NCBI RefSeq assembly: GCF_018141545.1
Contig: NZ_CP064356.1
Span: forward strand, 3,113,001 to 3,177,000
Direction of reading: 5' to 3'
Length of the DNA stretch: 64,000 bases
Source of the DNA: Miltoncostaea oceani
Lineage (GTDB): Bacteria; Actinomycetota; Thermoleophilia; Miltoncostaeales; Miltoncostaeaceae
Positions within the stretch are counted from its first letter, which is position 1. Each line of letters opens with the position of its first letter. The notes under the pieces were generated by a model. It was not told the DNA's origin. It ran no database searches and saw nothing but the letters and a program-made list of their open reading frames with translations. The translations under genes and the position numbers were made by a program. Of this stretch, positions 2,604 through 43,525 are shown one piece after another.

Positions 2604-2617
2604 TGTATGAACCACCC

Positions 2618-4842: not shown

Positions 4843-4928
4843 GGGCGTCGCCGCGAAGCCCTAGGTCGCGTCGGGTCAGGCCGGCCCTTACGATGCACGC
4901 ATGACGCGATCATGGTCTCGGTGGCCCT

Positions 4929-9403: not shown

Positions 9404-9508
9404 GGCGCGTGCAACCGACCCGGCCGGCGATCACCGGCGCGAACGACCTGCCCCACCCAGCCGGACGATCCCCTTCCCTCCGTTGGCGGTTGCTCTCCCC
9501 CCCCCGGG

Positions 9509-10146: not shown

Positions 10147-10336
10147 TGGGGTTGGCCACCGCCCCGCGAAGGCGACCGCGGTTCGCCCACGGGCCCTTCC
10201 ACGAACCGGACGTGTAAACCCGGCGAAGGTGCAGGCGAGCTCGGTCGCGGTTGGCGTCCAATGCGGCGCGCATGACTTCGATCCGCCGGAGACGAGCCGC
10301 GTCTCTCCGGGCGCGCGCCGGTCGAACGGCTAGGGA

Positions 10337-10353
10337 CACCGGCCGCGCCGGTG
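10337..10353. repeat. Inverted repeat upstream of uppP
   Basis: CACCGGC-CGC-GCCGGTG is a perfect 7-bp inverted repeat ending 16 bp before the uppP start. It could be an operator or the end of the preceding transcript. Confidence 0.4.
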
Positions 10354-10369
10354 CGTATGGTCCCGCCCC

Positions 10370-11188
10370 GTGTCCTGGTTCGAAGCGATCATCCTCGGCA
10401 TCACGCAGGGGCTCACCGAGTTCCTGCCGATCTCGAGCACCGCCCACCTGCGGATCATCCCCGCCTTCGCGGGCTGGGAGGACCCGGGCGCGCTCTTCAC
10501 CGCCGTCATCCAGCTCGGGACTACCCTCGCCGTGGTCATCTACTTCTGGCGTGACCTCACCAGGATTACCGGGGTGTGGCTGCGGAGCCTCCGCCGGCCG
10601 GACCTGCGCGGTGAGCTCGACGCCCGGATGGGCTGGTACATCATCATTGCGACGATCCCCATCGGCGTCTTCGGCCTGGCCTTCAACGACCAGATCGAGA
10701 CCGGTGCGCGCAACCTGTATCTGATCGGCGTCGTGCTGATCGTTCTCGGGCTGATCCTGATGGTGGCCGAGATGGTCGGCCGCAAGACGCGCGGACTCGA
10801 GGAGGTCACCCGGTCCGATGCGATCTGGGTGGGCCTGGCCCAGGCGCTGGCACTCGTGCCGGGCACGTCGCGCTCGGGCGCGACCATCACGGCCGGCCTG
10901 TTCCTCGGCTTGGAGCGTGAGGCCGCGGCGCGGTTCTCGTTCCTGCTGTCCATCCCCGCGATCGTGCTGAGCGGCCTCTACGGCCTGACCGAACTGATCT
11001 CCGGCGACGACGACGTGGCGTTCGGCGCGCTCGCCATCGCGACCATCGCCGCGTTCGTCGTCGGCTACCTGTCGATCGCCTTCCTGCTGCGCTACCTGGC
11101 GCGGCACTCCACGTACATCTTCGTCGTCTACCGCGTGGTGCTCGGCGCCGTCGTCCTGATCCTCACGGCGACAGGGACCATCAGCTAG
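10370..11188 (+). CDS. uppP: Undecaprenyl-diphosphatase (BacA/UppP type)
   Basis: The 272-residue polytopic membrane protein starts at GTG 10370 and has both family signatures. One is GITQGLTEFLPISSTAHL near the N-terminus, with the conserved Glu and Ser/Thr cluster. The other is LVPGTSRSGATITAGL in the second half, with the catalytic Arg/Ser. UppP dephosphorylates undecaprenyl pyrophosphate outside the membrane, recycling the lipid carrier for peptidoglycan synthesis. It stands alone: upstream is the broken CPBP gene and downstream genes converge on it. Confidence 0.93.
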   Translation: MSWFEAIILGITQGLTEFLPISSTAHLRIIPAFAGWEDPGALFTAVIQLGTTLAVVIYFWRDLTRITGVWLRSLRRPDLRGELDARMGWYIIIATIPIGVFGLAFNDQIETGARNLYLIGVVLIVLGLILMVAEMVGRKTRGLEEVTRSDAIWVGLAQALALVPGTSRSGATITAGLFLGLEREAAARFSFLLSIPAIVLSGLYGLTELISGDDDVAFGALAIATIAAFVVGYLSIAFLLRYLARHSTYIFVVYRVVLGAVVLILTATGTIS

Positions 11189-11289
11189 CGGCGGGACGAG
11201 CATGGACCTCGGAGCCCTGAGTGCAGAACTCGGGCCGATTCGACGACACCGACCCGGTCGGCAGATTCGACGGCCGGCTCGTCGATCGA

Positions 11290-12009
11290 CTAACCGAACT
11301 GGTTGAAGCGCGCGAGCTCGCGTGTGATGACCGCGAGCTGTCCACTGGCCACCAGCAGGCCCATCGCTGCGAGACCCGCCCCGGAGACGAGGGACAGGGC
11401 GGCCCCGGCGCGGCGGACCCGTCCGAAGACGCCGACGGCCCGGTCGAACGCGATGCTGGTCAGGAGGAACGGGACCCCGAGTCCCGCCGAATAGACCAGC
11501 AGCAGAGCCGCGCCACCCGACGGACTCTGACCGGTCGCAGCGAAGGTGAGGATTCCACCGAGGATCGGCCCGATGCACGGCGTCCAGCCGATGGCGAAGA
11601 CCACACCTGTCAGCGCTCCGCCGCTCAACCGCCCGCCGCGCCCGGTCGCCCACATGAGCGGACGCCACTCGCGCTGCCCGAGACCGAGGCGGGGACCGAA
11701 CATGATCAGGAGGCCCAGCGCGATCAGGACCGCCCCCCCAACGAGTTCCAGCCCGCGACGCTCGTCCTTCAGCGTCGCACTGGCGCCCCCGATGCCGGCT
11801 CCCAGGAGGGTGAACACGAGCGCGAAACCAAAGATGAACGCCAGGGTCGGCGCCATCACGGCGCGGCGCTGATCCGGGATCCGGTCTACCGATACGCCCG
11901 ACAGGAAGGCGAGATACCCCGGCACCAGCGCGAGGACGCAGGGAGACAGGAAGGACAGGACCCCGCCGGTGAACGCGACCGCGAAGGCCGTGGCGCCGAT
12001 CTCACTCAC
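11290..12009 (-). CDS. ccdA: CcdA-family thiol:disulfide electron transfer membrane protein
   Basis: The 239-residue protein has six predicted helices and the two-helix-hairpin Cys motifs of CcdA/DsbD-beta: FLSPCVLALVPGY and GWTPCIGPILGG. CcdA passes electrons from cytoplasmic thioredoxin to extracytoplasmic thioredoxin-like proteins. Its ATG overlaps the stop of the TlpA-like gene (ATGA), so the partner is encoded next to it. Together with CcmF at 43866 this suggests cytochrome c maturation. Confidence 0.9.
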   Translation of the reverse strand: MSEIGATAFAVAFTGGVLSFLSPCVLALVPGYLAFLSGVSVDRIPDQRRAVMAPTLAFIFGFALVFTLLGAGIGGASATLKDERRGLELVGGAVLIALGLLIMFGPRLGLGQREWRPLMWATGRGGRLSGGALTGVVFAIGWTPCIGPILGGILTFAATGQSPSGGAALLLVYSAGLGVPFLLTSIAFDRAVGVFGRVRRAGAALSLVSGAGLAAMGLLVASGQLAVITRELARFNQFG

Positions 12010-12632
12010 GGTGCCTTGGGCGGGAGGATCAGATCCAGACCCTCTCCGATCTGGGCGGCGTCGATCTCCCCGATCCAGTGGACGCGGACACGGCCGGCTC
12101 GGTCCACGAAGTAGGTCTCCGGCAGACCGGTGAGTCCGTAGGCGCGGGACGTCTTGTCACTGCCGTCCCGGACGTGCGGGTAGGTCTGTCCGTACTCCGC
12201 GATGAAGGCGCGCGCGTTGCCGCGGATGTCCTGGACGTCGATCCCCAGCACGACTGCACCCCGTTGCCGCGCCGCGAGCCAGGCCTCCTCGAGGGCGGGC
12301 GCCTCTCGTCGGCAGGGATCGCACCAGGAGGCCCAGAAGTTGATGACCACCGGTCGCCCCCGTAACTCCTCGAGTGACAGGAGCTCGCCCTCGCGCTTTC
12401 CGACCGCCGAACCGTTGGCCAGGACGGGGAGGGTGAACGCGGGAGCCGCCTCGAGCTCGCCCCGGGCGATCGCGTCGTCGATGCTCCGGTCGATCCCTCC
12501 GGCCGTCAGACCGACGAGGAGAAGACCCAGGACGCCGGCGACGATCAACGACGCCACCACGGCGAACGCAAGGCGACGCGCGGGCCACTGTTTCTCCGGG
12601 CCCTCCGAGTCGGCGCGGTCGGAGTCCGTCAT
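12006..12632 (-). CDS. Membrane-anchored TlpA/ResA-like thioredoxin
   Basis: The 208-residue protein has a short charged N-terminus, one membrane anchor (residues about 22-45) and a thioredoxin domain with the active site FWASWCDPCRREAP. The cis-Pro region is GLPETYFVDRAG. ResA/TlpA proteins reduce apocytochrome c heme-binding cysteines or other extracytoplasmic disulfides, receiving electrons from CcdA, which is encoded directly downstream with a 4-bp overlap. Confidence 0.88.
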   Translation of the reverse strand: MTDSDRADSEGPEKQWPARRLAFAVVASLIVAGVLGLLLVGLTAGGIDRSIDDAIARGELEAAPAFTLPVLANGSAVGKREGELLSLEELRGRPVVINFWASWCDPCRREAPALEEAWLAARQRGAVVLGIDVQDIRGNARAFIAEYGQTYPHVRDGSDKTSRAYGLTGLPETYFVDRAGRVRVHWIGEIDAAQIGEGLDLILPPKAP

Positions 12633-12843
12633 CCATTCCAGCTTAGGGGACCCACGACGGATGGAGACGTCGAGATCGTTCGCGAGTACCTCCCTGGTGA
12701 CGACCGTCCCGGGCGGGAAAGGCCGACTCGACCGTACGGCCCGAGTCTGCTGATCGCGACGGGCTTCCGCTGTGGGAAGCGCCTGCGCGACGGGGCTGTT
12801 GGACGTGTGGGGCGACGCCAGCCGCCGCCCGGCAGGACCGGCC

Positions 12844-28598: not shown

Positions 28599-31007
28599 TC
28601 AGCCAGGCATAGGCGCGACCTCAACGGGCGCCGGCGGGGAGGGCGAGCGGTCGTCGCCCGATTCCGAGGGGAGTGGTAGCCGCTTCAGCGCGAGGGCGTT
28701 CAGGGCGACGATGATGCTCGAGCCGGCCATCGTTATCGCCGCGATCTCGGGGCGTAGCGTCAGACCCCAGGGCTCGAAGACGCCGGCAGCGATCGGCAGG
28801 GCAAGCGAGTTGTAGCCGATCGCCCAGGCGAGGTTCTGACGCATCTTCCGCACGGTCCCGCGGGCGATCGCAACCGCCGTCGCTACGTCGAGGGGGTCCG
28901 AGCGCATGAGCACGATGTCGGCCGTCTCGACGGCGACGTCGGTGCCGGTGCCGATGGCGATGCCGACGTCGGCCTGAGCCAGCGCGGGCGCGTCGTTGAC
29001 GCCGTCGCCGACCATGGCGACCCGGCGGCCCTCGGCCTGCAGCCCCGCGACCGTCGCCGCCTTGTCGCCGGGCAGGACCTCGGCCAGCACCTCGTCTATC
29101 CCCACCTCCCCCGCGACCCGGGCGGCGGTTGCGCGGCTGTCGCCGGTCAGCATCACCGAGCGGACCTCGAGCTCTCTCAGGGCGCCGACGGCCTGAGCCG
29201 CGCTGGGGCGCCCCGCGTCGGCCAGCGCGATCGCTCCCACAGCCGTCCCGTCGACCGCGACGAGGACGACGGTGCGGCCCTCACGGGCGAGTTCGTCCGC
29301 CCGTCGTTCGAGTTCGCTCTCGGGAACACCCTCGCGGCGCAGCAGACGTGTGTTCCCGACGGCGACCCGCCGGCCGCCGACGTGTGCAACCGCCCCGTGG
29401 CCGGGCACGCTGTCGAACCGCTCGGCGACTGGGACCTCGAGTCCGCGGTCCCGTGCGTCCACCACGATCGCCTGCGCGAGAGGGTGCTCACTCTCGCGCT
29501 CGACGGCCGCGACCGCGCGCAGGAGATCGTCCTCGGCGACGCCGTCGGCGGTGATCACGCCGACGACGCTCGGCTCGCCTTTGGTGAGAGTGCCGGTCTT
29601 GTCGAACACGGCCGTGTCCACGGCCGCGGCCTGTTCGAGGGCGACGGCGTTCTTGACGAGGATGCCGCGGCGCGCGCCGAGGCCCATGCCGACCATGATC
29701 GCCATTGGCGTCGCGAGGCCGAGGGCGTCGGGGCACGTGATCACGACGACGGTGATGGCGAAGAGCAACGCCTCCTCGACCGGCCGGCCCACGACGACGT
29801 ACCAGGCGAGGAACGTCGCGAGGCCGCCGATCAACGCCACGAAGACGAGCCAGAACGCCGCCCGGTCAGCCAGGCGCTGGCCCGGGGCCTTCGAGTTCTG
29901 CGCCTCCTGCACCATCGCGACGATCTGCGCGAGGGCGGTGTCGGCCCCGACGGCGGTGGCCCGGGCGCGCAGCGTCCCGGTGGTGTTGATGGTGGCGCCG
30001 ACCAGCGCGGAGCCGGGGCCCTTGGCGACCGGGACGCTCTCGCCCGTGACGGTCGACTCGTCGACCTCGCTCTCCCCCTCGAGCACCTCGGCGTCCACGG
30101 GGACCTTCGCCCCCGGCCGGATGAGCAGGAGGTCGCCGACCACCAGGTCGGCCGTCGGCACCTCGACCGGCTCCCCGTCGCGGATGACGAGGGCGATCGC
30201 CGGGGCTAGGTCGAGCAAGGCCCGGATGGCGTCGTTGGCGCCTCCACGGGCGCGCATCTCGAGCCAGTGCCCGAGCAGGACGAAGGTGGCGAGCAACGCG
30301 GCGGCCTCGTAGAAGACCTCGCCCTCGATCCAGAACGTCGCGGCGACCGAGTAGATCCATCCCGCGCCGATCGCCACGGCGACCAGCACCATCATGTCGA
30401 GGGTGCGTGCACGAAGCGCGATCCACGCCCCGTGGAAGAAGATCCACGACGAGTAGAAGACGACCGGCAGGCTGAGGATCAGCTGCAGGACGTCGCGGTC
30501 GATCCCGAACGGGGTGCCGAGATCGAGCCCGAGCACGTCCGTGCCCAGGGGCGACCAGAGCACGATCGGGATCGCGAAGAGCAGGGCCACCAGAACCCGG
30601 TTGCGCATGTCGCGGGCCATGCCGTCCATCGACATGCCGGCATGTCCGCCGTGGCCGCCGCCGTGCGCCTCGTCGGCACGGTGGACCGCCCCGTCGTGAC
30701 CAGCGGCCCCTTCGTCCACGTCGTCGCCCATCGGGTCGCAGACGTGGCCGGGGACCGAGCGCCCCGCGCAGTGGTAGCCGCACTCCTTGACCCAGGCGCT
30801 CAAGTCCGGAACAGAGGTGCGGCCGGGGTCGTAGGTGACGGTCGCCGTCTGCGCGACCGGGTTCGCCTCGATCGCAATCACTCCGGGCCGGTGCCCGAGC
30901 ATCCGCTCGACGACGTCCTTCTCGCTGGCGTAGTGCAGCCCGCCGACGTGGATGACCTCCGTGCGCAGCGCGGTGTCCGCGGCCGTCCGGCCGGTGGGGG
31001 TGCTCAT
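28599..31007 (-). CDS. P1B-type ATPase with CPD membrane motif, copper-regulon member
   Basis: The 802-residue protein has an HMA-like N-terminal fold (residues about 15-80) that lacks CxxC: GLHYAS stands where GMTCxxC is expected. A His/Met-rich stretch follows (about 104-130). The catalytic core is complete: TGES (321-324), DKTGT (Asp469), SEHPLA and GDGVNDAPAL. The membrane metal site is Cys-Pro-Asp (425-427), neither CPC nor the CPH of CopB-type pumps. It is encoded 4 bp after CsoR on the same transcript. Copper export is likely from context, but the motif allows a different ion or oxidation state. Confidence 0.85.
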   Translation of the reverse strand: MSTPTGRTAADTALRTEVIHVGGLHYASEKDVVERMLGHRPGVIAIEANPVAQTATVTYDPGRTSVPDLSAWVKECGYHCAGRSVPGHVCDPMGDDVDEGAAGHDGAVHRADEAHGGGHGGHAGMSMDGMARDMRNRVLVALLFAIPIVLWSPLGTDVLGLDLGTPFGIDRDVLQLILSLPVVFYSSWIFFHGAWIALRARTLDMMVLVAVAIGAGWIYSVAATFWIEGEVFYEAAALLATFVLLGHWLEMRARGGANDAIRALLDLAPAIALVIRDGEPVEVPTADLVVGDLLLIRPGAKVPVDAEVLEGESEVDESTVTGESVPVAKGPGSALVGATINTTGTLRARATAVGADTALAQIVAMVQEAQNSKAPGQRLADRAAFWLVFVALIGGLATFLAWYVVVGRPVEEALLFAITVVVITCPDALGLATPMAIMVGMGLGARRGILVKNAVALEQAAAVDTAVFDKTGTLTKGEPSVVGVITADGVAEDDLLRAVAAVERESEHPLAQAIVVDARDRGLEVPVAERFDSVPGHGAVAHVGGRRVAVGNTRLLRREGVPESELERRADELAREGRTVVLVAVDGTAVGAIALADAGRPSAAQAVGALRELEVRSVMLTGDSRATAARVAGEVGIDEVLAEVLPGDKAATVAGLQAEGRRVAMVGDGVNDAPALAQADVGIAIGTGTDVAVETADIVLMRSDPLDVATAVAIARGTVRKMRQNLAWAIGYNSLALPIAAGVFEPWGLTLRPEIAAITMAGSSIIVALNALALKRLPLPSESGDDRSPSPPAPVEVAPMPG

Positions 31008-31011
31008 CGGG

Positions 31012-31326
31012 CTACCTCCGCCCGACCAGGCGGGTGAGCGCCGTCATCAGCTCGGCGCGCATCTCCTCCTGGTTCTCGGTTGCGGCGCCCAGGACGCAAT
31101 GGCGGGTGTGCTCGTCCACCAGCGCCAGGGCGACCTTATCGAGCGCCGCCTGGGCCGCGCTGATCTGTTGGAGCACGTCGAGGCAGTAGCGGTCGTCCTC
31201 GACCATCCCGGCAATCCCGCGCACCTGCCCCTCCACGCGGCGCAGACGCTTGAGGATCCCGCTCTTCGCGCCGGCCGCGGCGTACCCGGGGTCGGTGAGT
31301 CTTGGGGTGTTCTGGGAATTCGTCAT
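31012..31326 (-). CDS. csoR: CsoR-family copper-sensing repressor
   Basis: The 104-residue all-helical protein has the DUF156 signature KRLRRVEGQVRGIAGMVE and the Cu(I) ligand triad Cys48, His73 and Cys77 (YCLDVLQQ and DEHTRHC). Cu(I) binding releases CsoR from G-tract operators. Two such sites occur in the intergenic region upstream, shared with the divergent copZ operon. It forms an operon with the CPD-type ATPase. Confidence 0.9.
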   Translation of the reverse strand: MTNSQNTPRLTDPGYAAAGAKSGILKRLRRVEGQVRGIAGMVEDDRYCLDVLQQISAAQAALDKVALALVDEHTRHCVLGAATENQEEMRAELMTALTRLVGRR

Positions 31327-31335
31327 GGGGCGACC

Positions 31336-31391
31336 TTGACATACATGGGGGGAGTATTCAAGATGGCGTCGTCAGTTACTCCCCCCCAGTA
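31336..31391. promoter_or_regulatory. Divergent copper promoter with two inverted CsoR-type sites
   Basis: Site 1 (31342-31356) is TACATGGGGGGAGTA and site 2 (31377-31391) is TACTCCCCCCCAGTA. Each is a G-tract flanked by TAC/GTA as in CsoR operators, and they are near mirror images. TTGACA at 31336-31341 with CAAGAT 17 bp later serves the rightward operon, so site 1 lies in its spacer. AAGGAG at 31391-31396 is the copZ ribosome-binding site. Confidence 0.7.
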
Positions 31392-31405
31392 AGGAGACGA
31401 CCGCG

Positions 31406-31612
31406 ATGTCGGACGAGCGCACGTATCACGTGGACGGCATGACCTGCGGTCATTGCCGCGTCGCGGTGTTGGAGGAGGTTGGCGCCCTCGCCGGCGTTGA
31501 CGAGGTCGAGGTCGATCTCGCCACCGGCCGGATGGTGGTACGCGGCGACGCCGTCGACGACGGCGCCGTCGCGACCGCGGTCGACGAGGCCGGGTACGAG
31601 GTGCGGTCGTGA
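31406..31612 (+). CDS. copZ: Copper chaperone (HMA domain)
   Basis: The 68-residue protein is a single HMA domain with DGMTCGHC (metal-binding CxxC) near the N-terminus and the usual ferredoxin-like pattern through the end. AAGGAG lies nine bases before ATG 31406. It carries Cu(I) in the cytoplasm to the CopA ATPase encoded two genes downstream. The TGA overlaps the GTG of the next gene. Confidence 0.9.
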   Translation: MSDERTYHVDGMTCGHCRVAVLEEVGALAGVDEVEVDLATGRMVVRGDAVDDGAVATAVDEAGYEVRS

Positions 31613-32475
31613 GGACACCCGTCCGCATGGCCGCCTTCGCTGCGGTCCTGGGGGTCACTTTCGGCGCGGCCGCCCTCGCGGGCGGGGCGCTCGATCCCCT
31701 TCGCGACTCCGGCGACGGCCACGGCGGCGGCCACGGCGGCGAGCACGTCCCTGTCGCGGTGGCGCCGGCCGCGGAGCACGGCCCGCCGGGGCTCGCTGTG
31801 GCCGACGACGACCTGCGCCTAGTGGCGGACACGACGACGCTCGTCCGCGGTGCGACCACGCGGTGGAGCTTCCGCGTTGTGACGGCCGACGGCGTCGCCG
31901 TGAAGGACTTCGAGGTGGAGCACGAGCGCGAGATGCACCTCATCGTCGTCCGCCGCGACCTGAGCGGCTACCAGCACCTGCACCCGCGCCGCGGCGCGGA
32001 CGGCACCTGGACCGTGGCCCTGGAGCTGCCCGAGGCGGGCGTCTACCGCGCCTACGCCGACTTCACGACGGGCGGCCGTCCGTCCACCCTGGCGACGGAT
32101 CTGTTCGTCGCCGGCGCCTTCGCGCCGCGGCCGCTCCCCGCCCCGACCCCGATCGACGAGGCGGCGGGGTACCGGGCCGACCTGTCGGCGCAGGGCGTCG
32201 CGGCGGGGGCAACCGCCGACCTTTCCTACGACCTGACCCGCAACGGCCAGCCCCTCGATCGCATCGAGCCCTACCTGGGGGCGGACGGCCACCTGGTGGC
32301 CCTTCGCGAGGGCGACCTGGCCTTCCTGCACGTGCACCCCGAGCAGTCGGGCACCGCGGGCACGATCCGCTTCGGGGCCGAGCTGCCCTCGGCGGGGCGC
32401 TACCGTCTGTTCCTGCAGTTCCGCCACGACGGCGCCGCCCGTACCGTCGCGCACACGCTGGAGGTGTCCCGATGA
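31609..32475 (+). CDS. Secreted His-rich copper-associated protein
   Basis: The 288-residue protein starts at GTG 31609, overlapping the copZ stop. It has a signal peptide ending AAALAGG, a His/Gly-rich stretch (HGGGHGGEH), then two related beta domains. Both repeat a His cluster: EMHLIVVRRDLSGYQHLHP in the first and GHLVALREGDLAFLHVHP in the second, so the protein is an internal duplication with two likely metal sites. Its stop overlaps the copA start. Extracytoplasmic copper binding is inferred from the cluster and the His pattern. Confidence 0.75.
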   Translation: MRTPVRMAAFAAVLGVTFGAAALAGGALDPLRDSGDGHGGGHGGEHVPVAVAPAAEHGPPGLAVADDDLRLVADTTTLVRGATTRWSFRVVTADGVAVKDFEVEHEREMHLIVVRRDLSGYQHLHPRRGADGTWTVALELPEAGVYRAYADFTTGGRPSTLATDLFVAGAFAPRPLPAPTPIDEAAGYRADLSAQGVAAGATADLSYDLTRNGQPLDRIEPYLGADGHLVALREGDLAFLHVHPEQSGTAGTIRFGAELPSAGRYRLFLQFRHDGAARTVAHTLEVSR

Positions 32476-34721
32476 GCGCGACGACCAACCCCTCCCCCGA
32501 GCGGGTCGAGCTGCCCATCACCGGGATGACCTGCGCCTCGTGCGCGGCGCGCATCGAGAAGCGACTGAACCGGCTGGAGGGCGTCGAAGCGTCGGTGAAC
32601 TACGCGACCGAGACGGCGTCGGTTACCTTCGACGCGGCCGTCGTCGCCCCCGAGCGCCTGGTGGAGGCCGTCGAGCAGGTGGGCTACAGCGCCCAACTGC
32701 CGACCACTCCCGACGCGGATGCCCCCTCGAGCGAGGACGAGGCAGATCCCGCGGCCCCGCTTCGCCGCCGCCTGACTTGGTCAGCCCTGCTGTCGGTGCC
32801 CGTGGTCCTGATGTCGATGATTCCTGCGCTGCAGTTCGACAACTGGCAGTGGCTCGCGCTGCAGCTGGCCACCCCGGTCGTGATCTGGGGGGCCTGGCCC
32901 TTCCACCGCGCCGCCTGGACGAACCTGCGCCACGGCGCGGCGACGATGGACACGCTCATCTCGATCGGCGTCCTCGCAGCCTGGACCTGGTCGCTTGTGG
33001 CGCTCTTCTTCCTCGGGGCCGGTGATCCCGGCATGCGGATGGGCTTCAACCTGGTGGTCGACCCCGGCGCCGCCGCCGACCACATCTACCTGGAGGTGGC
33101 CACCGTCGTGACCACCTTCCTGCTGGCCGGCCGCTACTTCGAGGTGCGCGCTAAGCGCAGCGCGGGCGCCGCCCTGCGGGCCCTCCTGGAGCTGGGTGCC
33201 AAGGAGGCCTCCGTGCTGGGTGACGACGGCGCCGAGCGCCGCGTGCCGATTGCCGACCTCACGGTGGGCGACCGCTTCGTGGTGCGCCCCGGTGAGCGGA
33301 TCGCCACCGACGGAGTCGTGGAGGAGGGATCCTCCGCGGTTGACGCGTCGCTTCTCACGGGCGAGAGCGTGCCGGTCGAGGTCGGCCCGGGCGACGCCGT
33401 CGCCGGGGCGACGATCAACGCGGGCGGTCGGCTGGTCGTGCGCGCGACGCGTGTCGGCGCCGACACCGCCCTGGCGCAGATCGGACGGCTCGTGACGGAG
33501 GCGCAGACCGGCAAAGCCCCGATCCAGCGCCTGGCCGACCGCATCTCGGCGGTCTTCGTGCCCATCGTGCTCGCGCTGTCGGTGGGAACCCTCGGGTTCT
33601 GGCTTGCCAACGGGGCGGGGGCGACCTTCGCCTTCACCGCCGCCGTGGCGGTGCTGATCATCGCCTGCCCCTGCGCCCTCGGGCTGGCCACCCCCACCGC
33701 GCTGCTGGTGGGCACGGGCCGCGGCGCCCAGCTCGGCATCCTGATCAAGGGCCTCGAGGTGCTGGAGTCGACACGCCGGGTGGACACCGTCGTGCTCGAC
33801 AAGACCGGCACCGTGACGAGCGGCGAGATGGCGCTGGTGGACATCGCCCTCGCGCCGGGGGAGGACCGCTCCGAGGTCCTTCGTCTCGTCGGCGCCCTGG
33901 AGGACGGCTCCGAGCACCCAATCGCCCGAGCGATCGCAAGGGCGGCGCGCGAGGAGCTGAGCACGCTGCCGCCGCCCGAGGGCTTTGCCAACCGCGAGGG
34001 CCTCGGCGTCGAGGGGGTCGTCGAGGGGCACGGCGTGGTCGTCGGGCGACCGGCGCTGCTGGCCGACTGGGGCCTGACGCTGGACGACGCCCTCACCGCG
34101 GCGCGGGAGCGGGCGCAGGCAAGCGGGCGCACCGCGGTCGCCGCCGCCTGGGACGGTAAGGTGCGCGCGATTCTGATCGTGTCCGACACGGTCAAGCCGT
34201 CCAGCGCCGAGGCGATCCGCCGTCTGAAGGACCTCGGCCTGCGGCCTGTCCTCTTAACCGGCGACAACGAGGCGACGGCGGGGGCCGTATCCGCCGAGGT
34301 CGGGATCGACGAGGTGATCGCCGAGGTCCTGCCCGGCGAGAAGGCCGAGGTGGTGCGTCGGCTGCAGTCCGAGGGGCGCGTGGTGGCGATGGTGGGCGAC
34401 GGCGTCAACGACGCCCCGGCGCTCGCGCAGGCCGACCTCGGCCTCGCGATCGGCACCGGCACCGACGTGGCGATCGAGGCATCCGACCTCACGCTCGTGT
34501 CGGGCGACCTGCGATCGGCCGGCGACGCCATCCGGCTCTCGCGGCGCACGCTCGGGACCATCAAGGCCAACCTGTTCTGGGCTTTCGCCTACAACGTGGC
34601 GGCCCTGCCGCTCGCGGCGCTCGGGTACCTCAACCCGGTCGTCGCGGGGGTTGCGATGGCGCTCTCCAGCGTCTTCGTCGTCTCCAACTCGCTGCGCCTG
34701 CGCCGGTTCCAGCGGGCGTGA
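32472..34721 (+). CDS. copA: Cu(I)-exporting P1B-type ATPase
   Basis: ATG 32472 overlaps the preceding stop; the open frame upstream is a shadow. The 749-residue protein has one HMA domain (GMTCASC, Cys21/Cys24), eight predicted helices, TGES, the CPC site (399-401), DKTGT (Asp443), SEHPIA and GDGVNDAPAL. Near the end, YNVAALPLAALG and MALSSVFVVSNSLRLRRF give the YN and MSSS-like signatures of Cu(I) pumps (P1B-1). It is the last gene of the copZ operon, followed by a hairpin. Confidence 0.93.
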   Translation: MSATTNPSPERVELPITGMTCASCAARIEKRLNRLEGVEASVNYATETASVTFDAAVVAPERLVEAVEQVGYSAQLPTTPDADAPSSEDEADPAAPLRRRLTWSALLSVPVVLMSMIPALQFDNWQWLALQLATPVVIWGAWPFHRAAWTNLRHGAATMDTLISIGVLAAWTWSLVALFFLGAGDPGMRMGFNLVVDPGAAADHIYLEVATVVTTFLLAGRYFEVRAKRSAGAALRALLELGAKEASVLGDDGAERRVPIADLTVGDRFVVRPGERIATDGVVEEGSSAVDASLLTGESVPVEVGPGDAVAGATINAGGRLVVRATRVGADTALAQIGRLVTEAQTGKAPIQRLADRISAVFVPIVLALSVGTLGFWLANGAGATFAFTAAVAVLIIACPCALGLATPTALLVGTGRGAQLGILIKGLEVLESTRRVDTVVLDKTGTVTSGEMALVDIALAPGEDRSEVLRLVGALEDGSEHPIARAIARAAREELSTLPPPEGFANREGLGVEGVVEGHGVVVGRPALLADWGLTLDDALTAARERAQASGRTAVAAAWDGKVRAILIVSDTVKPSSAEAIRRLKDLGLRPVLLTGDNEATAGAVSAEVGIDEVIAEVLPGEKAEVVRRLQSEGRVVAMVGDGVNDAPALAQADLGLAIGTGTDVAIEASDLTLVSGDLRSAGDAIRLSRRTLGTIKANLFWAFAYNVAALPLAALGYLNPVVAGVAMALSSVFVVSNSLRLRRFQRA

Positions 34722-34923: not shown

Positions 34924-35874
34924 TCACACCGGTGCGGCGCCGGCGAGATAACCCGCCAGCGCCAGAGAGATCGGCTGGCCCGTCGCCTGCTCGAACGCGC
35001 TGTAGGCCGGACTGGGGTTGACCTCGAAGCAGTAGGTCTCTCCGTCGGGGGTGATCCGCAGATCGATCCCAGCGAAGTCGAGGCCGAGACCCGCGGCGAG
35101 CTCCAGGCATCGACCGGCTGTCGCATCATCGAGGGCGAAGGGGAACATTCGCGCCTCGCCCTGCTCATGGTGGGCGTAGCGCCAATCGGCGCTGCCGCTC
35201 TCGATCGCCGTCGCGAAGACGCCGCCGTCGGAGAGCGTGTGGACCCGGACATCGAGTCCGTCGATGCGTTCCTGGAACTGGACCGGACAGACGGCCAGGC
35301 GGTCCAGGCGGCGGAGGTCGTCGCCGTCCAGCTCGCGCACGATCGAGCGTGCACCGCTGATGGACTTGTAGATGACCCGCTCGTGGATCTCCTTGAAGGC
35401 GAGCACCTCGTCCGGATCGTTGGTGACGAGGGTCTCAGGCACGGCGAAGAGATCGGCGATGAGACGCGCCTGGTATGGCTTCGAGGCGTTCGAGGCCTGG
35501 GCGGAGAGTCGGTTGACCACCCGGCCCGGCATCAGTTCGCACCAGACGGCAAGCGCCTCGTGCAGGCGGTCGGCGCGGAGGCGCATCGCATCATCGGGAG
35601 GGAGCGCGGCCAGCTCCGGGAGGATCTGGTGGTCGACGACCCGGTTGTAGACCCCCCTAACGTCCTCCAGAGTGATCGGCTGCCCGGCGACATGCAGGAC
35701 CCCGGCGGTCTCCCCACGATCGACGGAGACACCCATCTCCAGCGTCGCGACCTCTCGTTGGTTGACGACGGCGTAGGGCAGGCGCAGCTTCTCGAGGGCC
35801 GCGGCCACCATCGCGAGCGGCGGCTCCGATGGAATGCCGACGAGGAGGACCGAGGCGGTCGCGCCGTCAGGCAT
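34924..35874 (-). CDS. ATP-grasp ligase (RimK/graspetide-synthetase-like)
   Basis: ATG 35874 overlaps the stop of the gene upstream; the longer frame is rejected because it lies inside that gene. The 316-residue protein has a pre-grasp domain (SVLLVGIPSEPP, GVYNRVVDHQ, PGRVVNRLSA) and an ATP-grasp domain. Visible ATP-grasp features are the Lys of VIYKSISGARS, QERIDGLDVRVH, and the Mg-binding set Asp271 (GIDLRI), Glu284 and Asn286 (CFEVNPSP). Such enzymes join carboxylates to amines or hydroxyls, for example in ribosomal peptides or protein C-termini. Last gene of the tyrosinase operon; its substrate is not known. Confidence 0.82.
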   Translation of the reverse strand: MPDGATASVLLVGIPSEPPLAMVAAALEKLRLPYAVVNQREVATLEMGVSVDRGETAGVLHVAGQPITLEDVRGVYNRVVDHQILPELAALPPDDAMRLRADRLHEALAVWCELMPGRVVNRLSAQASNASKPYQARLIADLFAVPETLVTNDPDEVLAFKEIHERVIYKSISGARSIVRELDGDDLRRLDRLAVCPVQFQERIDGLDVRVHTLSDGGVFATAIESGSADWRYAHHEQGEARMFPFALDDATAGRCLELAAGLGLDFAGIDLRITPDGETYCFEVNPSPAYSAFEQATGQPISLALAGYLAGAAPV

Positions 35875-36580
35875 CGAGCGCGCGCCGCAGCGCATCGAGG
35901 GCCGGCCGGCCGCCGTGGCGGAGATCCGGGAGCGGGGTCGCGTCCTCGAGCGCCCACTCGCCGCCGGGATCACGCGCGAAGGTTACGCCGAGGAGGGTGA
36001 CCCCGGCGGCATGGGCGAGCTCGCGACAGCCGGCGGCAAGCTCGTCCGGCACGGATCCCGTCACCTCGTCCCCGATGACAACGGCGGCGGCGCGCTCGAC
36101 CGGCTCCGGGGCGGGAGAGTCATCCCAACTGGCCCGGCTCCACTCCCGGGCGGGTAGGCCGACGCGAGCTGCCAGCCACCGCCACTGCGCCGGCCAACGC
36201 CACGGACCGCACAGGAGGGCGGGGCTGGGCCGATTCAGCACCGGGCAGGGCAGGGACGCCATCCAGCTGGCGAGCGCCGCGGTGATCTCCTCAGCCACAT
36301 AGTCGCGGTCAGTCGCCCCGAGGGACGCGAGGGCCGCCTGGGGGACGTGCGTCGTGCGGTTGATGACGCCTCGGACCTCACCGGAGCGGACCTCCACACC
36401 GCGGCGGGTGACGAGCTCGACGCTCGCCTGCCCGCCGCGGTCGAGGCGGTGGACCAGCCGGGCGCCGACAACGAGCTCGTCCGGCAGGAGGATCTCGAGC
36501 GGCGCGACCCCGAGGTGGCGCAGCCCCGCGACGGCCCAGATCGCGGCCTCATCGTGTGGCTCGCAGATGGCAAGCCACAC
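35867..36580 (-). CDS. ATP-grasp-associated protein with pre-grasp-like domain only
   Basis: The 237-residue protein starts at GTG 36580, 6 bp from the tyrosinase stop. Its middle matches the pre-grasp part of the next gene's product: GVINRTTHVP against GVYNRVVDHQ, and ASWMASLPCPVLNRP against AVWCELMPGRVVNR. A C-terminal part follows that lacks the ATP-grasp EVNP metal motif and the Lys-rich loops, so it is unlikely to bind ATP by itself. It could be a non-catalytic partner subunit or substrate-recognition factor for the ligase. This is an inference from the shared sequence and coupling. Confidence 0.65.
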   Translation of the reverse strand: MWLAICEPHDEAAIWAVAGLRHLGVAPLEILLPDELVVGARLVHRLDRGGQASVELVTRRGVEVRSGEVRGVINRTTHVPQAALASLGATDRDYVAEEITAALASWMASLPCPVLNRPSPALLCGPWRWPAQWRWLAARVGLPAREWSRASWDDSPAPEPVERAAAVVIGDEVTGSVPDELAAGCRELAHAAGVTLLGVTFARDPGGEWALEDATPLPDLRHGGRPALDALRRALDA

Positions 36581-36586
36581 GGCGGG

Positions 36587-37789
36587 CTAGAAGGGGCCGC
36601 CGCCGCGCAGTTCCTCGGCGCGCAGCATGAGCTCCTCCTGGAGCTCTGCGAGGTCCGGCTCGAAGCCGAGCGCGGCCTGGGTGAGATCCGGTCGCAGCTC
36701 CTCGGGAATGAAGGGGCCGATCTCCTCGCGCGCGAACCGCTTCGGGCCCTCGCGGACGTCCTTCAGCTCCTTCGGATCGCGGTCCTTCCCGAGCTCCTTG
36801 GGGGCACGGTCCTTGACCAGCTCCTTCGGCAGCCGCTCCTTGACGCGCTCCTTGTCCTTGATGAGTTCCTTCGGCAGCCGCTCCTTGAACTCCTTCGGGA
36901 GCCGATCCTTGATCAACTCCTTCGGGAGGCGCTCCTTGATGAACTCCTTGGGCAGGCGATCCTTCGGCTTGATCGCCCGGCACGGAGGATCGATCGTGTC
37001 GTAGAGCGTGTTGAGCACCCGGTGGTCGAGCAGGTCGGCGGGTCGGACGCTCTCGGGGACCGTCGTCCACGGGAGGATGCCGAAGGGGCTCGTCCCGCCG
37101 TTCCACGGCCACATGGTGTCGTTCAGGTTGTGGCCGCTCGGGCCGCCGGACGCGGGCGCGTACTGCACCCACCCCGCCTGGCCGGACTTGGCGACGGTCC
37201 ACTCCGCCCAGAGGCGATCGACGTTGCAGTGGATCAGCCAGAAGACCGGATCCCGCGGAGCGAAGGCGATATCTCCGACGGTTCCCCCCACCCAGGAGTG
37301 CGACGCGCCGTGCGGGCTCTCGAGCCCGCGCATCAGCGTGTAGTCGAACTCGTCGACGAAACCCGCGATGGTCCCGCCGCCGCCGGGGAACTGGAAGATG
37401 TCGAAGCGGTTGCGCCGGAGGTTCCAGGCCGGACCGGTGAAGGGGCCGGTTGCCACGGCGAAGTTCGCGCCACTCCCCGGACCGCCCATGAAGTCGTCGC
37501 GCCAGATGAGGCTCTCGGTACCCGCGGCGTTGAGGTTCGCGACAGTCCAGTCCCAGTAGGGGATGTTCACGCTCGAGTCGATCGCCTGCAGCTCGAGCTC
37601 GAAACGACGAAGTAGCTCACGGTGCCACGGGAAGAAGGCCGGGCCGAAGTGGCCGTGGTTGAGCCCCCCCTGGTGCATCGTCGCGTAGCGGTCGTATCCC
37701 CCGTTGGCCTTGAGCTGGAGCACCGCGTTGACGAACGCCTGGCGCTCCGACAGCGTCAGGCGGGTGAGGTTCTTCCGACAACCCATCAC
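36587..37789 (-). CDS. Tyrosinase (type-3 copper oxidase) with C-terminal charged repeats
   Basis: The 400-residue protein has no signal peptide. The CuA site is His39, His47 and His56 (NHGHFGPAFFPWHRELL) and the CuB site is His160, His164 and His187 (HGASHS and FWLIHCNVDRLW). DPVFWLIH is the family signature. After the catalytic domain, residues 276-343 are seven or eight tandem nine-residue units of the form K(D/E)RLPKEL(I/V), followed by a 55-residue acidic tail. Tyrosinases hydroxylate phenols and oxidise catechols; the repeats are not part of the known fold. ATG 37789 overlaps the stop of the 125-residue protein gene. Confidence 0.9.
   Translation of the reverse strand: MMGCRKNLTRLTLSERQAFVNAVLQLKANGGYDRYATMHQGGLNHGHFGPAFFPWHRELLRRFELELQAIDSSVNIPYWDWTVANLNAAGTESLIWRDDFMGGPGSGANFAVATGPFTGPAWNLRRNRFDIFQFPGGGGTIAGFVDEFDYTLMRGLESPHGASHSWVGGTVGDIAFAPRDPVFWLIHCNVDRLWAEWTVAKSGQAGWVQYAPASGGPSGHNLNDTMWPWNGGTSPFGILPWTTVPESVRPADLLDHRVLNTLYDTIDPPCRAIKPKDRLPKEFIKERLPKELIKDRLPKEFKERLPKELIKDKERVKERLPKELVKDRAPKELGKDRDPKELKDVREGPKRFAREEIGPFIPEELRPDLTQAALGFEPDLAELQEELMLRAEELRGGGPF
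36761..36964 (-). repeat. In-frame 27-bp tandem repeats in the tyrosinase gene
   Basis: The coding repeat units are about 27 bp long, encoding KDRLPKEFI, KERLPKELI, KDRLPKEF, KERLPKELI, a degenerate KDKERV, KERLPKELV, KDRAPKELG and KDRDPKELK. Alternation of D/E and L/F shows divergence under protein-level constraint. Confidence 0.85.
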
Positions 37790-38163
37790 CGCCTCCTTGT
37801 ACGACCGCCGCCACGCTTCTTACCCTCGTTCCCCTCGGCGGCGTCATCGTGTCGGTCGTCGTCCGGTGCTCCCGCCATCGGATGGGCCGACACCACCCCG
37901 CCGGGCGGACGCTCACCGTGGCCGTGGCCCTCGCTGGGAGCGAAGTCGGGGCTGTTGAAGATGTAGGCGTAGTCGACGAGGTGCCGGATGACGCTCACTG
38001 GGTCGTCGGACATGAAGTAGGCCTCCGGGCAACCCCAGACCCGGACCTCGCCCTCATGCCGGGTCAGCGTGACGACCCGCTCGCCGACGGTCGCCGTTAT
38101 GTGGTCATCGTCCTCGTACTCGATCGCGATGGCCGTGCCCTTGTACGACATGTGCTGCGCCAT
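37786..38163 (-). CDS. Small acidic/His-rich protein heading the tyrosinase operon
   Basis: The 125-residue protein starts at ATG 38163 behind a strong ribosome-binding site (AGGAGGG, five bases upstream). Residues 1-75 look folded: GTAIAIEYEDDDHITATVG, VWGCPEAYFMSDDPVSVIRH and LVDYAYIFN. Residues 76-125 are low in complexity, with EGHGHGE, HDD clusters and a basic end (GKKRGGGRTRRR). It could be a copper-delivery caddie for the tyrosinase or the peptide substrate of the ATP-grasp enzyme. No family recognised. The stop overlaps the tyrosinase ATG. Confidence 0.75.
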   Translation of the reverse strand: MAQHMSYKGTAIAIEYEDDDHITATVGERVVTLTRHEGEVRVWGCPEAYFMSDDPVSVIRHLVDYAYIFNSPDFAPSEGHGHGERPPGGVVSAHPMAGAPDDDRHDDAAEGNEGKKRGGGRTRRR

Positions 38164-39133: not shown

Positions 39134-40297
39134 ATGCGTCTGCATCGGCTACCCGTCCCCGCGGCGATCCTCGTCGTCGTCGCGGCGCTGGCCGTCCCGG
39201 CGGCGTCGGCACCGGGTGACATCGCCTCGAAGCGCCAGCAGGTCGCCGAGCTGGACCGCGAGCTGTCGGCGGTCGACGCCGAGGCCGGTGCGGCGGCCGC
39301 CGCTCACAACGCCGCGCTCGACCGGAGGGACGCCGTGGCGACGCGGATCGGCGAGACCCGCACCGAGGTCCGGCTGACGACTCGGCAGCTGCGGAGCTCA
39401 CGGGAGCGCCTCGGTGAGCGGATGGTCGCCCTCTACGTCCGCGAACCGCCGGATCCCTTCGAGGCCCTCCTGCAGAGCGGCGACCTAGCCGACGTCCTCG
39501 CGGTCACGGATCTGCTCGAGCGGACCGCGGCCTCCGACGCTGCCGTGGTGGCGAAGGTCAAGGAGAGACGCCAGGCGCTCGAACGGCTGCGCGCGCGACT
39601 CGCCGCCGACGCTGTGGTCGCCGGTCGCGAGCTGGCGGAGGCGCAGAGTCAGCGGCGCCGAGTCGAGGCGCTGCTCGACACCAGGCGTCGCGCCCTCGAG
39701 GGGGCTCGCGAAGAGCTCGGAACCCTGCTCGCGGCGGAGCGGGCGCGCCTGGCTCGTCTGGCGGCCCGGAAGAAGGAGGCCCAGGAGGAGGCCCGACGCG
39801 CAGCGGCGACGTCGGTCGCATCCCCCTCGGTCTCACCAGGGCCGGCGTCTCCGTCTGCCGGAGCCGCATCCGCCCCCGTCCCCGGGGGCTCGCACGTCTA
39901 CCCGCTCGCCGGGCCGAGCACCTTCGGGGACGACTGGCTGGCGTCACGGCCGGGCGGTCGCTACCACGAGGGCATCGACCTCTTCGCGGCACGGGGCACG
40001 CCCGTCGTCGCCGTGGCCGACGGCACCCTCTTCCGCGTCGGCTACAGCGGGATCAGCGGCAACCGCTTCTGGCTCCGCGACGAGGGGGGCACCGAGTTCT
40101 TCTACGCCCACCTCGATGGCTACACCGCCGCCGCCCGGGAGGGGGCAGCCGTGGCTAAGGGGACGGTGCTCGGCTACAACGGCGACACGGGCGATGCCCG
40201 GGGCACGTCGCCTCACGTCCATTTCGAGATCCACCCCGGCGGGGGTGGGCCGGTCCGCCCCTACCCCATCGTCAGCGCCTGGCCGCGCGTCGGGTGA
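39134..40297 (+). CDS. Secreted M23 peptidase with N-terminal coiled coil
   Basis: The 387-residue protein has a signal peptide ending PAASA, a coiled coil (residues about 30-225) with the conserved patch MVALYVREPPDPFEALLQSG, a Ser/Pro/Ala linker, and an M23 domain with YHEGIDLFA and HVHFEIHPGG. All zinc ligands are present. No Shine-Dalgarno is visible, so translation may be leaderless, consistent with the direct-repeat operator close to the ATG. It belongs to the same paralogue group as the hydrolases at 8198 and 40810. Confidence 0.87.
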   Translation: MRLHRLPVPAAILVVVAALAVPAASAPGDIASKRQQVAELDRELSAVDAEAGAAAAAHNAALDRRDAVATRIGETRTEVRLTTRQLRSSRERLGERMVALYVREPPDPFEALLQSGDLADVLAVTDLLERTAASDAAVVAKVKERRQALERLRARLAADAVVAGRELAEAQSQRRRVEALLDTRRRALEGAREELGTLLAAERARLARLAARKKEAQEEARRAAATSVASPSVSPGPASPSAGAASAPVPGGSHVYPLAGPSTFGDDWLASRPGGRYHEGIDLFAARGTPVVAVADGTLFRVGYSGISGNRFWLRDEGGTEFFYAHLDGYTAAAREGAAVAKGTVLGYNGDTGDARGTSPHVHFEIHPGGGGPVRPYPIVSAWPRVG

Positions 40298-40809: not shown

Positions 40810-42051
40810 TCAGAGGTAGCTAAGTGGATCGACAGCAGCGCCGTTGATGCGGATCTCGAAATGGGAATGGACGCCCGTCGAGTTGCCCGTCGTCCCCATG
40901 CCAGCAAGGACCGACCCCTGGGAGACACTCTGCCCGACCGACACGGAGACGCTCGCATTGTGCGCGTACGCCGTGCTGATGCCGGCGCCGTGATCGACGA
41001 CCACGAGGTTGCCGTAACCGCCGCTCCACCCTGCGAGGATGACGGTGCCCGCGCGTGCGGCGACGATGGGACTGCCTGTGGCGCCGGCGATGTCGATGCC
41101 CTCGTGCATGCGCCCCCACCGGGGTCCGTATTGCGAGGTCAGGGTCCCCTGCGCAGGCCAGATGAACCCGGAACCACCCGCTGGGGCTGGCTGGGCGGGG
41201 GCGGGAGCAGGGGCGGCGGGCGTGGGCTCTTGTGCGCCGCGGATCGCTGCGGCGAGGCGCGCCGATCGAGCCTGCAGGCCTCGCGTCTCGATCTCGAGCT
41301 CCTGGCGGTCGCCCTGCACGCCGGAGAGCAGCGTCCGGCGCTCCTCGAGGAGTTCGGTCAGTCCGGCCCGCTCCCGCTCGAGCTCTGACTTTGCAGCGAG
41401 CGCCTGCTCTGCCGCGTCCTCCGCGCGCGCTTCCGAACTGACGACCTCGGCGCGGATGTCGGCGATCCGGGCCACACGCACGCGCGTCTCATCGGCGAAC
41501 GTCGACACAGCGTCCGCGAGACCAGCGTCGCGGTCGGCGATCCCCTCGATCAGATCAGCCGTCTCCAACGCCGAGGACAAGCTGCCCGACTCGACCAATA
41601 GGAGGATGGGATCCGGCTCGCCGCGAACGTAGAGCTCACGGAGACGTCGCGCCAACAGCACCTGACGACGCGCCAGCGCGCTGCGCGCGGCGGCCAGCCG
41701 GCCGCGTTCGGCCGCGAGATCGCGCGTGAGTCCCGCGAGCCGGACGCGGAGGTCAGCGAGGTCTCGTGCGAGAGCCTCGGACCGCTCCCGTTGCGAGATC
41801 AGCCGAGACTCCACCGCCTGGATACGTTGGCCGTACGCCTCGACGTCCGCGGTGAGGACGCGCTCACGATCGCGCGCGTCCTGCAGCCGCGCCTGAGCCT
41901 GCTCGAGCTGGTCATTGGTGTTCCCCTGTGCTGCGCTCCGGGGGACGGCGAGAACCCCTACCAACAGCACGAAGATGCCGATGAGCGCTGCGAGCACGGT
42001 GCTCCAGGGGCCCGTTGGCCTGCCACGGCCCGTCTGTCGCGTCACGTTCAC
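40810..42051 (-). CDS. Secreted M23 peptidase with coiled coil, paralogue of the 8198 gene
   Basis: The 413-residue protein starts at GTG 42051, overlapping the stop of the gene upstream. It has a signal ending SAAQG, a coiled coil of about 230 residues with LRELYVRGEPDPILLLVESGS, and an M23 domain with HEGIDIAGATG and HSHFEIRINGAAV. The last 130 residues closely match the hydrolase at 8198-9403, showing a recent duplication. It is the third gene of a leftward unit with the PG-binding/M23 protein and the 210-residue protein. Confidence 0.88.
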   Translation of the reverse strand: MNVTRQTGRGRPTGPWSTVLAALIGIFVLLVGVLAVPRSAAQGNTNDQLEQAQARLQDARDRERVLTADVEAYGQRIQAVESRLISQRERSEALARDLADLRVRLAGLTRDLAAERGRLAAARSALARRQVLLARRLRELYVRGEPDPILLLVESGSLSSALETADLIEGIADRDAGLADAVSTFADETRVRVARIADIRAEVVSSEARAEDAAEQALAAKSELERERAGLTELLEERRTLLSGVQGDRQELEIETRGLQARSARLAAAIRGAQEPTPAAPAPAPAQPAPAGGSGFIWPAQGTLTSQYGPRWGRMHEGIDIAGATGSPIVAARAGTVILAGWSGGYGNLVVVDHGAGISTAYAHNASVSVSVGQSVSQGSVLAGMGTTGNSTGVHSHFEIRINGAAVDPLSYL

Positions 42052-42680
42052 ACGCCCGGGTAGCTGGAGACGACGAGGCGCAGGACGTCGGGCGTCGGCC
42101 GGTCCGCGTCCTCGAGGCGCCGCAAGGCGTACGTGAATCCCGCGTAGGTCGCCTTCTGCAGGCTGGCGGTGCGAGCTTCAGGCGCGCCGAACCAGAGGAG
42201 AACTCCTTCGAGGGCCAGCGCGGCCGAGAGATGCACGTCCGTCGAGACCTCGCTCAGGGCGACACCCGCAAGAGCGGCGGTCGAGGAAGCCATGGCCAGG
42301 GCCGACGGTGCGGGTTCCTTCACAGCTGCGGCGACGCCCTCGCGGGCCTCGATCAACCGTCCGACGATGCTGGGCTCGCCGGGCCTCGTCCGCGGGACCA
42401 GCCGACGGCCGGCGACCCTCTCGGCCCAGGACTGACCGGACTCCCGCGGGGGCGGTTCTGTCATGGTCGCGGCGAATTGCATGATCAGGTGCCGGACGCG
42501 AGGTGTCAGGCTGCGGCTGGTCTGCCGCAGGGTCAAGGCCGCGAAGCAGACCGGCAGGAGGAGGCGGTCGAGTGACTCGCTGTCCGGCCACCGGTGCGCT
42601 CTCGGTTCGAGGCTGACCGCGGCGGCGGATCCTCCGTAGAGGTCCACCTGGATGGCGACGACGGGGCGCTGGCGCTTCAC
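42048..42680 (-). CDS. Conserved-looking protein of unknown function in M23 operon
   Basis: The 210-residue protein starts at GTG 42680 and overlaps its neighbours by four bases at both ends. It has no clear signal peptide or membrane helix. The first part is beta-like (VVAIQVDLYGGSAAAVSLEP); the second is helical and Ala-rich. No family recognised. Tight coupling between two M23 peptidases suggests a role in cell-wall hydrolysis or its control. Confidence 0.6.
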   Translation of the reverse strand: MKRQRPVVAIQVDLYGGSAAAVSLEPRAHRWPDSESLDRLLLPVCFAALTLRQTSRSLTPRVRHLIMQFAATMTEPPPRESGQSWAERVAGRRLVPRTRPGEPSIVGRLIEAREGVAAAVKEPAPSALAMASSTAALAGVALSEVSTDVHLSAALALEGVLLWFGAPEARTASLQKATYAGFTYALRRLEDADRPTPDVLRLVVSSYPGV

Positions 42681-43525
42681 CGATCTGGATCCGTGGCCAC
42701 GAGGTGTGGGAAGGGATTCACCGCCGCGGATCCGCCAGGATGGATCTCGAAGTGGACGTGCGGCGCCCCGAAGCGCGCGTCACCGGTGTTGCCGTTCGCG
42801 CCGATGCGCTGACCGACGGTCACCCTGCTGCCCTCGTCGAGCCCCGGTGTGAGGGAGTCGAGGTGGGCGTAGTAGTACTCCGTCCCGTCGTCGCGGCGCA
42901 GCCAGACGTAGATGCCGCCGAGCCCTCGTTCCGTCCGACTGAGGCGGTCGACCACGGCGTCCGATACCGCGACGACGGGTGCGCCGCGGTCCGCGAGGAT
43001 GTCGTTGCCCTCGTGGGCCCCTTGCCCCCGCGGTGCGCCATAGTCGTCGGAGTAGCTGTTGTCGGCGGCGACGGGGAATGTGTCCAGAAGACGACTGGCA
43101 CCCGGCGATGACGGCGCTCCCGGCGCTGCGGCCGCGCGGCGTGTCTGGAGACCCAGGCGCCTCTGCAGGGTCACTTCCACCTGTCCGGTCACGGGGACGC
43201 CGAACCGCAGCTGAATGCGTTCGACGGCTCGTCGCGTCGCTCGCCCGAAGATCCCGTCTGTCGCCACGGCGAGACCTCGACGGCGCAGGATGCGCTGAAG
43301 GTCGCGCACGACCGGACCGCTCGAGCCGATCTTCAGTATCCCGCCAAGCGCCCCGGCGGGAATCGCACGACGGGAGACGGCGGGCGCAGAGCGGGGCACA
43401 GCGGAGCTGCTACCAGGGGCGGGCGGCGGCGCGGGCACAGGACTACTGGGGGGTGACGGCGGAGGAAGGTCCAGCTGGGCGCCGGTGGCCGGCGTCACAG
43501 CCGAGAGGGCGGCGACGACGACCAA
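42677..43525 (-). CDS. M23 peptidase with peptidoglycan-binding domain; true start probably upstream
   Basis: From TTG 43525 the protein has 282 residues: signal core, Pro-rich linker, PG_binding_1 domain (IGSSGPVVRDLQRILRRRG, DGIFGRATRRAVERIQ) and M23 domain (HEGNDILADRG, HVHFEIHPGG). The frame stays open upstream and encodes the basic n-region (RARSHRRLRRLSAGAA) expected before the signal core. AAGGAG (43592-43587 on this strand) stands before it, but no ATG/GTG/TTG follows; an ATC at 43582 is in frame. Either a rare start is used or the start codon is mutated. Confidence 0.8.
   Translation of the reverse strand: MVVVAALSAVTPATGAQLDLPPPSPPSSPVPAPPPAPGSSSAVPRSAPAVSRRAIPAGALGGILKIGSSGPVVRDLQRILRRRGLAVATDGIFGRATRRAVERIQLRFGVPVTGQVEVTLQRRLGLQTRRAAAAPGAPSSPGASRLLDTFPVAADNSYSDDYGAPRGQGAHEGNDILADRGAPVVAVSDAVVDRLSRTERGLGGIYVWLRRDDGTEYYYAHLDSLTPGLDEGSRVTVGQRIGANGNTGDARFGAPHVHFEIHPGGSAAVNPFPHLVATDPDR

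Follow-up and report, generated by a model that had tools for sequence, protein, structure and literature searches.

What might a tyrosinase gain from sharing an operon with two ATP-grasp genes? We asked this question of four tightly coupled genes on the minus strand (38163-34924) of a 64,000-nucleotide stretch of the Miltoncostaea oceani genome (NZ_CP064356.1, positions 3,113,001 to 3,177,000), hereafter called the window. Our preferred answer, to which we assign a probability of roughly 0.6, is that the two ATP-grasp proteins act as a split graspetide synthetase which installs Lys-Asp/Glu cross-links in tails that extend entire enzymes at the C-terminus; a motif on the C-terminal side of the cross-linkable repeats would guide it. 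Gene 1 (P0001, 125 residues, 37786-38163) has a sequence resembling a ribosome-binding site, AGGAGGG, immediately 5' of it. Gene 2, the tyrosinase (399 residues, 36587-37786), most likely starts at ATG 37786 (MGCRKN...), the same start as in its Nitrospira homologue; with AAGGAGG ahead it overlaps the stop codon of P0001 by 1 nt as TGATG. A gap of 6 bp separates it from gene 3 (237 residues, 35867-36580, start GTG 36580), which in turn overlaps gene 4 (316 residues, 34924-35874, start ATG 35874) by 8 nt. The unit is not accidental, because all four genes are syntenic, in the same order, in a Nitrospira metagenome-assembled genome (MAG). An earlier sequence-only reading of the locus had described this four-gene operon with its overlaps and 6-bp gap and had proposed co-occurrence of the four families in other genomes as a check; the operon is real, with small corrections to the start coordinates, and the MAG provides the co-occurrence.

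Gene 4 matches the graspetide model TIGR04187 at 1.5e-30, well ahead of the RimK model TIGR00768 (7.6e-10) and of GSH-S_ATP (0.13). When the profile of its family was compared with the PDB, the matches comprised PsnB, MdnC, MdnB, CdnC, AMdnB and PruB, and RimK structures also matched. Residues K131, K169, D270, E283 and N285 (P0004 numbering, initial Met not counted) are invariant in 14 relatives; these and the following alignment-based counts, like the tree mentioned below, come from small samples. Gene 4 is thus a graspetide-synthetase-type ATP-grasp enzyme with intact catalytic residues. It shares the ATP-grasp fold with RimK and glutathione synthetase but matches them much more weakly than it matches the graspetide maturases. 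A glutathione- or RimK-type ligase was set aside on this ground, and the choice of a graspetide-type over a glutathione-type enzyme, made from the letters of this locus alone, was borne out.

Gene 3 models with confidence as the same fold. Its AlphaFold 2 (AF2) model has a predicted local distance difference test (pLDDT) score of 90.6 and reaches Z values of about 20 to AMdnB, MdnC and PruB in the VIA comparison; profile-profile comparison with the gene 4 family gives a probability of 98.7%, and no PHROGs match was found. The region of the ATP-binding lid is largely deleted. In 12 relatives the catalytic K/K/E/N residues are lost throughout and the catalytic Asp in ten, and in the N-terminal part Arg77 is kept in 11 and Asn120 in all 12. 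We read gene 3 as a catalytically dead paralogue, a putative pseudoenzyme partner of gene 4. It had been called pre-grasp-like before, which comes close, although the protein comprises the whole graspetide-type ATP-grasp fold minus the lid.

The tyrosinase domain of gene 2 (residues 1-271) is ordinary. It matches PF00264 at 2e-32 and the MelC2 model NF047834 at 1.3e-46, a score under the model's cut-off; candidate copper ligands, read by position, are His38, 46 and 55 and His159, 163 and 186, and the protein is 65% identical to the Nitrospira homologue. The unusual part is a C-terminal tail of about 128 residues (272-399). Its repeat segment (36716-36973) contains 17 Lys-Asp/Glu dyads in 86 residues, where 20,000 shuffles gave 4.6 on average and never more than 13, and is followed by PFIPEELRPDL. 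The tail behaves as a module: among the nearest tyrosinases from other genomes it is present in the Nitrospira protein (L003) only and missing from all others (L004-L017), and tyrosinase relatives that are not accompanied by the gene 3-gene 4 pair lack it. When 12 tails were pooled, the number of Lys residues standing directly before Asp or Glu was 217, where 80 were expected (z 23); an acidic residue two places after Lys was depleted (5 vs 79). Read from these counts, the conserved element is the K[DE] dyad, and neither a length nor a helix. A tail forming a single helix was considered and set aside, the tails of the window and of Nitrospira both having prolines within their repeats. The tail of the tyrosinase itself, rich in Lys, Glu and Asp, would be the likely substrate.

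Known graspetide synthetases bind a leader carrying the motif Phhx(1,2)h and then join Thr, Ser or Lys to Asp or Glu side chains (PMC8939145). PFIPEELRPDL fits this motif and lies within the putative recognition element PFIPEELRPDLT (36680-36715), C-terminal to the repeats. It can be aligned in 8 tails and has equivalents at 20 of 20 loci carrying the pair, among which the leading Pro is not universal. We propose that the pair recognizes PFIxxELRPDL close to the C-terminus of the tyrosinase, and that carboxylates of Asp and Glu in the upstream Lys-Asp/Glu repeats would then be activated and attacked by Lys amines, forming side-chain isopeptide bonds with a loss of 18 Da each. Gene 4 would supply the ATP-dependent catalysis; gene 3 probably forms the other half of a heterodimer, holds the substrate, or both. 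The outcome would be a tyrosinase that is normal except for its tail, which would bear multiple cross-links. The candidate precursor is a 399-residue enzyme with the motif after the repeats, and not a short peptide in which a leader precedes the core. There is precedent for both features: a C-terminally placed leader still works in an engineered system (PMC13003496), and graspetide synthetases can cyclize whole proteins (PMC12291112).

We then considered where the pair occurs and which proteins accompany it. At all 20 pair loci examined a motif-bearing gene adjoins the pair. In 13 of them a large protein carries the motif C-terminally, in nearly every case behind a charged repeat. These carriers are two tyrosinases, two S8 proteases (L018, L046), a trypsin-like protease (L064), two M6 proteases (L047, L049), an M43 protease (L075), a DUF676-type esterase (L051), a kelch protein (L059), two DUF6519 proteins (L048, L045) and a CIS13-family protein (L050). 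In Psychrobacter coccoides, for instance, the pair follows an S8 protease bearing an equivalent tail, and L046 encodes a second tailed protein besides its S8 protease. A profile of the tail end gave 8 matches in 7 pair-bearing genomes, each within the gene or genes beside the pair; among 396 genomes of the window's phylum it matched in only the two with the pair, and it matched nowhere else in the genomes searched. The system is rare, being found in 1 of 42 genomes of the window's order and 2 of 296 of its phylum. A related ATP-grasp gene is present in 17 of 246 genomes from the phylum of Nitrospira, and the phylum to which the Acidobacteria MAG L015 belongs contributes 1 of 247.

The sequence-only reading had proposed a protein-modification system with tyrosine oxidation as one of its steps. 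The first part stays the best reading. Tyrosine oxidation is not the common step, because the pair and the tail are also associated with proteases, an esterase and proteins of injection systems at loci that have no tyrosinase. That an enzyme pair and a tail of the same kind recur on unrelated proteases, on an esterase and on a contractile injection machine suggests a mode of whole-protein modification that is so far undescribed. We consider it an even bet that the locus represents a general protein-tailing system, in which a live and a dead ATP-grasp synthetase together covalently cross-link Lys-Asp/Glu tails on many unrelated enzymes and on components of contractile injection systems, giving all of them some common trait, for example extreme stability, anchoring or latency. 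For the tyrosinase, stabilization, anchoring or inhibition in cis could each be the role of the tail.

Several observations weigh against the proposed split synthetase and its tails. The NCBIfam scores of gene 4 are far under the curated cut-offs (106 vs 350 for TIGR04187), and gene 4 therefore belongs to a divergent branch. The repeats vary in length and spacing, so that they do not point to one particular ring connectivity. The tail of the injection-system protein in L050 is poor in K[DE] dyads (0.30). Finally, seven of the 20 pair loci have the motif on a small PqqD-like protein, at its N-terminus, and not on a tail; in most of these the second ATP-grasp protein is nearly full-length.

The tail could instead be modified by addition, the pair attaching amino acids, as in RimK-like extension, or else a small amine or a further protein chain; in the last case tails would be covalently joined into multi-enzyme assemblies. 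RimK-family ligases are the next nearest relatives of gene 4 by both model and structure matches, a graspetide synthetase is able to cross-link one protein chain to another (PMC12291112), and the density of Lys and Asp/Glu would suit bonds between chains. However, the similarity of gene 4 to the graspetide maturases PsnB and MdnC is much stronger than that to RimK, and the TLKFRDD repeats of two further loci (L061, L062) resemble intramolecular core repeats. We regard addition as unlikely.

A further proposal concerns the role of the tail and is compatible with a split synthetase: the modified tail might be a built-in inhibitor or pro-segment which keeps the enzyme silent until it is cut off. 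Microviridins inhibit serine proteases, microviridin A weakly inhibits tyrosinase (0.33 mM; PMC7823629), and several of the carriers are proteases. A shared inhibitory role does not suit the esterase, kelch and injection-system carriers, and we give it a small chance. The esterase and the injection-system proteins argue for a role of the tail that is more general than latency.

Alternatively the tail may be a mere docking tag, or a signal for export or loading, with the pair modifying another site or molecule. By eye the carriers have no obvious signal peptide, and some of them are encoded at contractile injection system loci, a setting in which a loading tag would be plausible. Yet nearly all residues of the repeat segment are of the kinds linked by graspetide synthetases, and only genes beside the pair were found to encode the tail, which makes us consider such a tag improbable.

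This leaves gene 1. No Pfam or NCBIfam model matched P0001, PHROGs gave no match, and its sequence profile found nothing in the PDB; the likeness to a caddie is visible by fold comparison alone. The AF2 model has six strands and one helix with a mean pLDDT of 65.8, and it is confident only over about residues 1-70 (pLDDT about 71-88). With this model the top 20 rows of the VIA comparison were all tyrosinase caddies (Z 7.1-7.8, next row Z 5.1), and Foldseek returned MelC1 (6j2u) with a probability of 0.98 but an E-value of 0.41, which is not significant alone. In addition, a more distant homologue, encoded at the corresponding place next to another tyrosinase (L061), matches the MelC1 model NF047833 at 5.2e-5. 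P0001 has a His-rich C-terminus. Gene 1 most likely encodes a MelC1-type copper caddie just upstream of the tyrosinase, which it would load with copper, and not a substrate. The sequence-only reading had taken the 125-residue protein for a Tyr-containing substrate that is oxidized by the tyrosinase and cross-linked by the ATP-grasp enzyme; a Streptomyces tyrosinase does oxidize Tyr98 of its caddie (PMC6312201) and Tyr49 of P0001 is invariant among three relatives, but the caddie fold, the absence of such a gene from the non-tyrosinase loci that keep the pair, and the missing PFIxxELRPDL motif led us to reject P0001 as the substrate and make this model very improbable.

The split synthetase with its tails shares several features with known systems. 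With graspetides (microviridin/MdnB-MdnC, plesiocin/PsnB, fuscimiditide/ThfB; TIGR04184, TIGR04185, TIGR04187) it has in common the ligase family, the catalytic residues, the PFI-type motif and cores rich in donor and acceptor residues that are sometimes repeated. Unlike in graspetides, the part predicted to be modified is a C-terminal extension of a complete enzyme in which the motif comes after the repeats, and a dead ATP-grasp paralogue is coupled to a live one. Leader proteases and exporters are frequent, though not universal, in graspetide systems; none is encoded among the four operon genes, and the tested neighbors are copper-handling genes and an M23 peptidase. Recent work described a large precursor whose repeated motifs contain Lys-Asp isopeptides (corallotide, 2026) and a synthetase that depends on a partner protein (rosaritide) (PMC13097080). 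Here the corresponding cross-links are predicted from sequence and a similar dependence would be expected; their partner MirC is SurA/RRE-like and not a degenerate ATP-grasp protein, and their precursors are not enzymes. The caddie and tyrosinase genes resemble the Streptomyces MelC1/MelC2 operon, but here the tyrosinase has a predicted cross-linkable tail, two ATP-grasp genes follow, and a signal peptide on the caddie is not evident. Among the open-licence papers searched, none joins graspetide, tyrosinase and ATP-grasp or describes anything like the system; overlap with groups 34, 35 or 41 of PMC13097080 (long repetitive precursors, copper amine oxidase) is possible.

Graspetides are known as small modified peptides, whereas the same chemistry here apparently acts on the tails of folded enzymes, with a C-terminal tag and a pseudoenzyme partner. 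If true, the system would be a natural counterpart of the two engineering results on C-terminal leaders and whole-protein cyclization, and could provide a portable tag for cross-linking protein tails. The tails also offer a concrete candidate substrate for ATP-grasp loci without an obvious precursor peptide.

Several loci show variations of the arrangement. L050 (G635, 1174-12686) is a contractile injection system locus with eCIS_core, CIS12 and AAA ATPase genes, in which the pair lies behind the CIS13-family protein; the latter has a charged tail and FIRPGERPDV. In L048 and the viral contig L045 a DUF6519 protein takes the position of the CIS13 protein, and L048 is also flanked by baseplate and tail genes. 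The M43 protease of L075 (4737-9820) combines the pair with a different donor/acceptor repeat, IKKxEPDT, and the product of the next gene reads like a B12-binding radical SAM enzyme. L061 (9972-11774, the tyrosinase with the MelC1-like caddie gene) and L062 (7468-8982, an M43 protease) have repeats of donor and acceptor residues (TLKFRDD type) followed by PFILxTPHH, and each has a single ATP-grasp gene. In a tree with several open forks and long branches these single genes group on the side of the graspetide synthetases already known and stand separate from the genes of the pairs; if this placement holds, tyrosinases were joined to such tails at least twice. In L052-L058 two ATP-grasp genes are followed by a PqqD-like protein with an N-terminal PFITADLRPDL or a variant of it, which may belong to a peptide pathway of its own in the Nitrospira phylum.

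A tblastn search of plasmids with gene 3 gave no match, and with gene 4 it found distant ATP-grasp ligases only, mostly of the ordinary graspetide type. Among six of the matching regions, one on a plasmid of Candidatus Megaera polyxenophila (L076, 7007-10202) carries an ATP-grasp gene annotated as glutathione synthase; behind it lie the gene of a hypothetical protein and two genes for dioxygenases. In the window itself, three proteins with M23-peptidase-like C-termini are encoded close together (39134-40297, 40810-42051 and 42677-43525), the first of which was checked with Pfam. On the other flank of the operon, positions 28599-34721 hold a copper-handling cluster of two P1B-type ATPases with HMA domains, a CsoR-type repressor, a CopZ-like HMA protein and a YtkA-like protein, which is consistent with a copper enzyme in the operon.

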